A DNA stretch of 64,000 nt from an uncultured Lachnospiraceae bacterium (GTDB taxonomy: Bacteria > Bacillota > Clostridia > Lachnospirales > Lachnospiraceae). Location of the stretch: assembly GCA_947589155.1 (NCBI GenBank), contig CANQBH010000004.1:1-64000 (forward strand), in the 5' to 3' direction. Positions within the stretch are counted from its first letter, which is position 1. Each line of letters starts with the position of its first letter. This document shows positions 4,288-23,652 of the stretch, one piece after another. The notes beneath the pieces were generated by a model. The model was given only the letters and a program-made list of their open reading frames with translations. It had not been told where the DNA came from and ran no database searches. The position numbers and the translations under genes were made by a program.

Positions 4288-5736
4288 ATGAGATATCTAC
4301 CAATAGAAGAAGCGCAGCCGGGCATGCTTCTCGCGTCCGACATTTATGATGCAATCGGCAGGACGCTGATCGGCCAGAATTGCGAATTGACGGCGGATTA
4401 TATCAACAGCCTGAAAGAACGCGGGATCGTCGGCGTATATATCGAAGACGACCTTTCCCGCGACATCCGTCTGGAGCAGGCGATCACGGAGCGCGTGCGG
4501 CAGGAGGGCATGGACTGCGTCGCGAAAAAGGACGTGGACGGCTGTATCAGGGTCGCCGGCCGGATCGTGGACGAGATCATCGAGAAAGGGAACGTCTCGT
4601 TCGACATTGCGGATCTGCGCTCTTATGACAACTATACTTTCGCCCATTCCGTCAATGTCGCGGTGCTGTCCGCGGCGATCGGCATGGGGATGCGGATGGA
4701 GCGGAGCGAACTGGTCAATCTGGTTACGGCGGCGCTGATGCACGATCTGGGAAAACTTGAGATCCCGATGGAGATCTTAAACAAACCCGCGCGCCTGACC
4801 AAGGAAGAATACGCGATCATGAAGAGCCACGCGGAATTTTCCTATCAGCTGCTCAGCGCGCGGTGGGACATTTCCGCGCATGTGAAGTCGGCGGTGCTTT
4901 TCCACCACGAAAACGAGGACGGCAGCGGCTATCCGCAGGGATTGGAAGGCGCGGAGATCCCGCTGTTTGCAAAGATCCTCCATGTGGCGGACGTCTATGA
5001 CGCGCTGCGTTCCAAACGCCCGTATAAAAAACCTTACGCGCCGAACGAAGCGGCGGAATATCTGATGGGCGGCTGCGGGATCCTGTTCGACCTTTCCATC
5101 GTAGAAAAACTTCTGGCCTGCGTGCCGCTGTATCCGAAGGGCTCTGAGGTGGAACTCTCGGACGGACGGCGCGCGATCGTCTGCGAGAACAGCGGCGCTT
5201 ACAATCTGCGCCCGCTGCTGCGCCTTATGGACGGGCGGGAACTGGATCTGACGAGATCGAAAAACCTCAATATCACGGTCGTCGGCGCATGGGAGGACAG
5301 TCAGGATCCGGATGATTCGCAGGAACAGCAGCGCAGCGACAACATCCGGCGGATCGAAAGAAAGCGGCTGATGGTCGTGGACGACATGAAGACAAATCTT
5401 CAACTGCTCCGCGGTTTTCTCGAAGACGAGTACGAACTGATCCTGTTAAAATCCGGACGGCAGGTGCTGCGCTATCTTGCAGACCACGACGCGCCGGATC
5501 TGATCTTAATGGATATCGATATGCCCGGCATGGACGGGATCGAGACCGCGTCGCGGATCCAGAAGATGACTGAGGAAAAGATCCCGATCCTGTTCGTATC
5601 GGCGATCTGCGACAGGCAGACCGTCATGCTCTGCCGCAGCATGAACGCCGCCGGATATATTGTCCGGCCTTATCAGCCGGTCTATGTCAAGTCGGAGATC
5701 CTGCGGATCTTGAAAGGGTGGAACGAGAGGATATAA
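4288..5736 (+). CDS. HD-GYP protein with C-terminal receiver (REC) domain
   Basis: ..LMHDLGKLEIP..HHENEDGSGYPQGL.. followed by RLMVVDDMKTN..LILMDIDMPGMDG.. Confidence 0.85.
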   Translation: MRYLPIEEAQPGMLLASDIYDAIGRTLIGQNCELTADYINSLKERGIVGVYIEDDLSRDIRLEQAITERVRQEGMDCVAKKDVDGCIRVAGRIVDEIIEKGNVSFDIADLRSYDNYTFAHSVNVAVLSAAIGMGMRMERSELVNLVTAALMHDLGKLEIPMEILNKPARLTKEEYAIMKSHAEFSYQLLSARWDISAHVKSAVLFHHENEDGSGYPQGLEGAEIPLFAKILHVADVYDALRSKRPYKKPYAPNEAAEYLMGGCGILFDLSIVEKLLACVPLYPKGSEVELSDGRRAIVCENSGAYNLRPLLRLMDGRELDLTRSKNLNITVVGAWEDSQDPDDSQEQQRSDNIRRIERKRLMVVDDMKTNLQLLRGFLEDEYELILLKSGRQVLRYLADHDAPDLILMDIDMPGMDGIETASRIQKMTEEKIPILFVSAICDRQTVMLCRSMNAAGYIVRPYQPVYVKSEILRILKGWNERI

Positions 5737-22828: not shown

Positions 22829-23509
22829 TTAGAGTAATTTTTTCTTTATATTTTTCAAATAATTTTTCTTGAATGTTCTGATATTACCAAAGAACATTAA
22901 CTCGGAATGACTGAAAGAGTTTGTTTCAGCCTTTTCGGCTAAAAGTTCCATTGTACAAATAAGATCAGCAATTTGGAATAACTTATAATTTATAGGTTTT
23001 ACTTTTCGGAATTCAACATGAGTATATAATGTATTGAAGATGGATATAAGAATTTTAGTGAGTTCAATTTGTCCGTTGTCATAGTAGATGATTACCTTAT
23101 CAAAACTATTCCAAAAATCTTCATTGTTTCGCAGTATGTCAGCCAAATTTTTCGAAATTTTTGAAGTCATTGATATGACATCCGGACATTCGATTTTCTT
23201 TACTTTTATGTAGGAATAGTGAAAATCCAGTTTGCGGGCAAAGTTAAATAATGCATTGAATAAGCGTTTTCTTTCTTCAATAAGGGCGTTAGTATAAACG
23301 GCTTCGCGCCTTATCAGCGGACCGGTATGAATGGCGTGATGTGGATAGCCTAAGTTTGATAAATGCGAATCAAAAACTTTTATATTTTCGGAGATATCAA
23401 TATTTTGATTATGTAATACCATAGAAACCACGTAGTAGGGTGCGTGGGGGTCGTAAGGACCAAAATCACCAGATTCATCTATGAATACACTAAGTATTTT
23501 TTCTGACAT
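22829..23509 (-). CDS. DUF3800 domain-containing protein
   Basis: MSEKILSVFIDESGDFG.. start and ..KVIIYYDNGQ..FQIADLIC.. are typical of DUF3800. Confidence 0.85.
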   Translation of the reverse strand: MSEKILSVFIDESGDFGPYDPHAPYYVVSMVLHNQNIDISENIKVFDSHLSNLGYPHHAIHTGPLIRREAVYTNALIEERKRLFNALFNFARKLDFHYSYIKVKKIECPDVISMTSKISKNLADILRNNEDFWNSFDKVIIYYDNGQIELTKILISIFNTLYTHVEFRKVKPINYKLFQIADLICTMELLAEKAETNSFSHSELMFFGNIRTFKKNYLKNIKKKLL

Positions 23510-23511
23510 AC

Positions 23512-23617
23512 AATCATCCTTTTCCAATCCTGCGTATGAAAATGGCGGGGAAATTCCCCGCCGTTCGGTGGACCAGGGTCTTTCGACCAGCCCGAATCAG
23601 CCACCGCTGATTTATTA
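23512..23617 (-). ncRNA. Candidate structured leader RNA upstream of DUF3800
   Basis: Minus-strand helices AATCAGC-GGTG-GCTGATT (23595-23612), GGTC-GAAA-GACC (23577-23588), GGCGGGGA-ATT-TCCCCGCC (23544-23562), and possible pairing of CGGTGG (23601-23606) with CCACCG (23566-23571). Confidence 0.6.
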
Positions 23618-23623
23618 TATGCA

Positions 23624-23652
23624 ATTATAAGTCAAATACACCCAAATGTCAA
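23624..23652 (-). promoter_or_regulatory. Consensus sigma-A promoter for DUF3800 leader
   Basis: On the minus strand TTGACA-N17-TATAAT, both hexamers perfect. Confidence 0.85.

Follow-up and report, generated by a model that had tools for sequence, protein, structure and literature searches.

A DUF3800-XI RNA before a predicted RNase H-fold nuclease gene in a Lachnospiraceae bacterium, and solitary copies of the RNA core in phages

The minus strand of the DNA analyzed here, a window of 64,000 nucleotides from an uncultured Lachnospiraceae bacterium, carries a compact cassette in which a promoter, a short structured RNA, and a terminator-like hairpin precede a gene of the DUF3800 family. The gene (22832 to 23509, minus strand) starts with an ATG at 23509, where the original prediction had placed its start codon, and encodes a protein of 226 amino acids with a DUF3800 domain (PF12686, E = 4.4e-10), for which none of the PADLOC models of known defense systems gave a match. 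The protein is predicted to be an RNase H-fold nuclease with invariant acidic residues. Its AlphaFold2 model (pLDDT 94.7) finds its best matches among solved structures in RNase HII (E = 8e-5, TM about 0.4), and the residues D11, E12, G14, D15, H33, H61, E69, R80, D144, G146, Q147, Q179, and D182 are invariant in 29 diverse DUF3800 proteins. The prediction is in line with the literature, which describes DUF3800 as a catalytically rearranged RNase H fold that acts as an accessory nuclease at certain class 2 CRISPR loci (PMC10910872, PMC12669027).

The promoter is of the SigA type and lies at 23624 to 23652 on the minus strand, with the -35 box TTGACA at 23652-23647, a 17-nt spacer, and the -10 box TATAAT at 23629-23624. 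As had been claimed, it matches the consensus TTGACA-N17-TATAAT exactly, and it is the single such occurrence in the window, where shuffled sequences give an expectation of 0.01 by chance. A transcription start near 23617 is predicted and fits the position of the -10 box. Both the promoter and the terminator-like hairpin are recognized by sequence, and transcription of the cassette is a prediction. The order of promoter, RNA, terminator-like hairpin with T-run, and gene is maintained among relatives, and -10 boxes precede 37 of 48 gene-bearing copies of the RNA, compared with 16 of 92 control positions.

The RNA belongs to a family already catalogued and is typical of it. With cmscan, positions 23547 to 23594 (minus strand) match the Rfam family DUF3800-XI (RF02975) over model positions 1-48 of 48, scoring 70.1 bits (E = 1.7e-13) against a cut-off of 37.8, and the PF12686 gene begins 38 nt past the match. 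The leader was therefore rightly suspected of belonging to one of the DUF3800 RNA families; the additional suggestion that it might be a new variant does not hold, as the core sits near the Rfam consensus. A match of the Xoo2 sRNA in the leader scored under its own cut-off and was taken as chance.

When folded without constraints, the segment 23612-23536 forms exactly three hairpins, here called P1, P2, and P3, at -37.9 kcal/mol (z = -3.55; none of 200 shuffles folded equally well). P1 is the expected 7-bp 5' hairpin AATCAGC-GGTG-GCTGATT (23595 to 23612, minus strand). Among relatives its pairing is kept while its sequence is hypervariable, and in a shuffle test it was detected at p <= 0.05 in 44 of 100 non-redundant bacterial copies versus 7 of 99 control windows; the signal is concentrated in gene-bearing copies (27/49) and nearly missing in phage copies (2/17). 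In four loci (L027, L029, L047, and L049), two small hairpins upstream of the core (ACAGAT..ATCTGT and TGCAC..GTGCA) replace the single P1. P2 (23569 to 23594, minus strand) is the conserved hairpin with the GAAA loop. The GNRA hairpin of the original prediction is thus present, but its stem is longer than had been claimed, comprising 9 bp with a 2-nt bulge (23593-23570), in agreement with the Rfam consensus, which pairs P2 alone: an outer stem and, past a 2-nt bulge, an inner stem of 4 bp capped by a GNRA-type loop. P2 is followed by the linker CCGAAC (23563 to 23568, minus strand), delimited by column conservation in our alignments A1 and A2; together with the A before it, the linker forms a conserved ACC (or AUC) motif in both alignments.

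P3 (GGCGGGGA-ATT-TCCCCGCC, 23544 to 23562, minus strand) is the 8-bp GC hairpin that had been described before the start codon. The Rfam model leaves this segment unpaired, and the compensatory changes whose absence would have spoken against a structured leader do occur here and support the helix: among viral-contig copies, both sides change at 7 of the 8 pairs, for example GACGAAGG/CCTTCGTC, GGCGCTGG/CCGGCGCC, GACGTGGA/TCTGCGTC, and GCTGAGG/TCTCAGC. The covariation set consists of 24 non-redundant viral-contig cores (17 solitary and 7 cassette-like), in which P2 and P3 together score 0.298, versus 0.124 in shuffles (0/500 reach 0.298) and 0.09-0.12 in slid registers. Because most of P2 was fixed in the pattern used to retrieve the set, independent evidence comes from the inner P2 pairs and P3 only. 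Together with the tail ATTTTC that follows it (23538 to 23543, minus strand), P3 scores as a weak terminator-like site. The T-run of the window is weak, and most bacterial relatives have a stronger one past P3 (mean of 5.8 T in 9 nt).

A terminator-like hairpin immediately ahead of a gene raises the possibility that the RNA is a cis-acting leader, with P3 as attenuator and with P1 and P2 sensing a signal (e.g., the DUF3800 protein) that controls read-through into the gene. The RNA is indeed invariably found upstream of the intact gene, and such a leader might be expected to contain a conserved pairing that undoes P3. The one pairing examined, between CGGTGG and CCACCG, had been proposed as a pseudoknot or competing helix; it is possible in the sequence of the window, but the corresponding 5-nt match between loop and linker can form in just 5 of the 43 relatives whose 5' hairpin is clear, which rules it out as a conserved feature. 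The copies of the RNA that lack the gene also count against a leader: they are common, 17 of 29 gene-less bacterial copies retain the promoter as judged by their -10 boxes, and phages hold the RNA mostly without promoter or T-run and without detectable DUF3800. We therefore regard a purely cis-acting leader as improbable, although cis autoregulation is compatible with a role in trans and may be a second role of the RNA.

Among 250 genomes of the family, 38 contain DUF3800-XI RNA, as do 12 of 391 from the class. Its carriers range from Lachnospiraceae and Oscillospiraceae through Treponema, Fibrobacter, Saccharibacteria, and Flexilinea, with gut and rumen genomes predominating; cultured carriers include Acetatifactor muris DSM 23669 and Eubacterium oxidoreducens DSM 3217. 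The genome of the window contains a second copy on another contig (G000 contig 30; L002:778-825, minus strand), downstream of a tRNA-Met gene and with its own DUF3800 gene, whose product is 39% identical to that of the window. This copy belongs to a second RNA subtype (L002, L052, L053, L056, L058, and L060), in which the outer P2 stem reads UGGUCU/GGACCA and is compensatory to the main type; the subtype pattern gave no match among the viral contigs searched.

In the 250 related genomes, the distribution of gene and RNA is asymmetric. All 25 full-length DUF3800 genes of the window's clade have the RNA upstream. Twenty-two of these RNAs were called automatically and stand 21-72 nt before the gene, two were read by eye, and one is cut by a contig edge, the contig starting inside the RNA. 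Three genes that seemed to lack the RNA (G041, G039, and G224) proved on reading the sequence to have it, one of them being the copy cut by the contig edge, and a fourth candidate (G100) is a truncated remnant rather than a full-length gene. Conversely, the 54 RNAs in these genomes are accompanied by an intact gene in 23 cases, by a disrupted gene in 11, and by none in 18, with 2 cut by contig ends. The RNA thus persists without the gene in one third of the bacterial copies, while a whole gene without the RNA was not seen, so that the description of the element as a leader before a DUF3800 gene is incomplete. An antidote role of the RNA predicts RNA without gene and no intact gene without RNA. 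The asymmetry could also reflect decay of a dispensable cassette, a reading made less likely by the solitary phage copies described below. A comparison with empty sites within the genus revealed no readable insertion boundary, as the flanking gene is missing from the relatives. The genes around gene-bearing cassettes gave a few matches to AbiEi, restriction, and Cas1, an uncontrolled count from which no association is claimed. In one locus (L156:526-900), a gene with a CdiA_C domain (PF18451, E = 1.4e-16) stands 12 nt after the RNA in place of DUF3800 and is possibly a swapped nuclease partner.

The core of P2, linker, and P3 is also carried by tailed-phage contigs of IMG/VR, in records of up to 184 kb. 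The set of viral records bears terminase, portal, tail, and integrase genes, while a search for tail-sheath genes was uninformative. No DUF3800 was detectable in 25 of the 33 viral records with the RNA, where a fragmentary record cannot prove absence from the virus and 6 MAG-derived or fragmentary records may conceal a DUF3800 gene. Of the solitary-type loci scanned, 15 of 17 exceed the Rfam cut-off. The solitary groups score 41-73 bits with a model of P2 and P3 built in this analysis, which was trained on the same sequences and leaves the Rfam score as the independent one. Viral matches to a looser pattern (e.g., L207, L208, L210, L212, and L214) had weak scores or lacked P2/P3 pairing and were set aside as chance, and the annotated phages of INPHARED gave no blastn match to the RNA and one partial match to DUF3800. 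By sequence, the phage copies fall into 15 groups, 8 of which (L190/199, L201/215/226, L206, L211/213, L216, L218, L224, and L235) have tRNA genes of the same strand no more than ~300 nt away, the loci holding up to 22 tRNAs. In L190, L201, and L215, the RNA stands only 4-6 nt ahead of the next tRNA. One phage tRNA array contains two DUF3800-XI copies (L218:3258-3308 and 5486-5534). Phage copies are usually without a promoter of their own (-10 boxes at 3 of 17), and the RNA is presumably co-transcribed with the tRNAs and released via tRNA processing. Most of them have lost the T-run after P3 (3.5 T in 9 nt versus 5.8 in bacterial copies), and P3 is therefore retained in phages as a structure rather than as a terminator. 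In a separate observation, the terminase matches of L190 and L224 contain in-frame TAG codons and those of L204 TGA/TAA codons, and a tRNA with a CTA anticodon occurs in L224, which suggests possible recoding in part of these phages.

The position of these copies invites the view that the core is first and foremost an RNA of phages or tRNA arrays that serves some unrelated purpose (processing, packaging, or translation) and was acquired later by DUF3800 cassettes. The core does reside by phage tRNAs and other phage RNAs: a drum RNA (RF02958) immediately adjoins it in two of the phage contigs (L191:11384-11537 and L197:485-638), in another a ROOL RNA (L216:7644-8224) shares its 22-tRNA locus, and ROOL and GOLLD are known near phage tRNA islands (PMC12286853). 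Such an origin is nonetheless very improbable, as 7 of the 15 phage groups lie away from tRNA and the bacterial RNA is tied to DUF3800, with 9 of 187 copies within 800 nt of a tRNA.

As the RNA is often gene-less in both bacteria and phages, a trans-acting RNA is favored. Restraint of the DUF3800 nuclease by DUF3800-XI is its most likely role, because the same order of parts is found in type III toxin-antitoxin systems and in AbiF. Our main reading, to which we assign a probability of about 0.5, is that the two make up a pair of the toxin-antitoxin (type III-like) or abortive-infection kind, with the RNA inhibiting the RNase H-fold nuclease and the phage copies acting as decoys. The SigA-type promoter would drive a short structured RNA of about 75-85 nt that ends at the terminator-like P3, and occasional read-through past P3 would yield the mRNA for the DUF3800 protein, the terminator maintaining an excess of RNA over toxin. 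The P2-linker-P3 core would act in trans, binding and restraining a presumably toxic DUF3800 protein in the way of type III and AbiF RNA antitoxins. In the putative anti-phage role of the pair, phages with the core alone would supply extra antidote or decoy RNA and thereby disarm the host system. Against this reading stand the missing type III hallmarks described below, the possible decay of the cassette, the records that may conceal a DUF3800 gene, and the weak T-run of the window.

The strongest rival is that the nuclease requires the RNA as its cofactor or guide within an RNA-protein effector, since phage decoys would arise under that role too, like the RNA anti-CRISPRs that mimic CRISPR repeats (Racrs, PMC10651486). 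The presence of the RNA with every intact gene seen would follow equally, and DUF3800 domains occur as accessory nucleases in some CRISPR loci and have been linked to noncoding RNAs (PMC10910872, PMC12669027). We nonetheless consider a cofactor unlikely. The core has no variable guide-like segment except P1, which is self-paired and lacking in phage copies, a mere cofactor would not need to outlast the gene as the RNA does, and terminators that separate the RNA from the gene typically go with an excess of antitoxin.

The literature searched contained no function for any of the several DUF3800-associated RNA families of Rfam and no description of solitary DUF3800-XI copies in phage tRNA arrays. 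As far as it shows, the covarying P3 helix, the asymmetry of gene and RNA, and the solitary copies in tRNA arrays are new, although parts may be contained in the original description of the motif. The asymmetry and the solitary phage copies provide a specific hypothesis that is cheap to test, namely that the RNA is an antidote and the phage copy a decoy. If this is true, an RNase H-fold family joins the RNA-controlled toxin systems, part of the noncoding RNA within the tRNA arrays of phages is accounted for, and natural phage antitoxin mimics are added to those known so far, which are pseudo-ToxI escape mutants (PMC5086642) and, for CRISPR, Racrs. More tentatively, the pair may represent a new class of RNA-inhibited toxin or defense system built on an RNase H-fold nuclease, with large phages having acquired, on repeated occasions, solitary RNAs that mimic the antitoxin, many of them next to tRNA genes, as counter-defense and with the other DUF3800 RNA families as further specificities in the same arms race.

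Compared with Rfam DUF3800-XI, the element of the window shares the sequence, the structure of P2, and the place before a DUF3800 gene; Rfam pairs P2 only, whereas the present analysis adds P3 as a conserved helix and P1 as a 5' hairpin that goes with the cassette. With the type III systems ToxIN, CptIN, and TenpIN (PMC5086642), the cassette shares the order of promoter, RNA, Rho-independent terminator, and nuclease gene, its T-run being conserved in bacterial relatives. However, DUF3800-XI/DUF3800 cannot be classed as a type III toxin-antitoxin system, because tandem RNA repeats (each cassette read among the relatives has a single core), a pseudoknotted RNA (the sole proposed pairing is not conserved), and the ToxN/AbiQ/CptN/TenpN fold (the DUF3800 model has an RNase H fold, with RNase HII as the nearest solved structures) were all not found. 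Another parallel in layout is AbiF with its abiF-motif RNA RCd22 (RF03085; PMC12373285), which likewise consists of a SigA promoter, a short structured RNA, a terminator, and the gene. There, the RNA neutralizes the toxic AbiF protein in cis and in trans, and the terminator separates RNA from gene. The two systems differ in the fold of the RNA, in the protein (Abi_2/Cas13-like in AbiF versus RNase H fold here), in the number of motif copies (two versus one), and in that the function has been shown for AbiF, whereas we infer it for DUF3800-XI. ROOL and GOLLD are likewise phage noncoding RNAs near tRNA islands, but they are unrelated, measure several hundred nt where the core here has about 50, and have no known host partner gene. 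For the proposed phage decoys, precedents exist in phage TE, which evades ToxIN via a pseudo-ToxI RNA (PMC5086642), and in the Racrs. Racrs mimic CRISPR repeats, whereas the element here is a DUF3800 RNA; in both cases, viruses carry solitary copies of an RNA element of a host system, proposed here to act as decoys, and the phage copies of DUF3800-XI keep the structure of the RNA in records that mostly have no detectable DUF3800, as would be expected of a Racr-like decoy.
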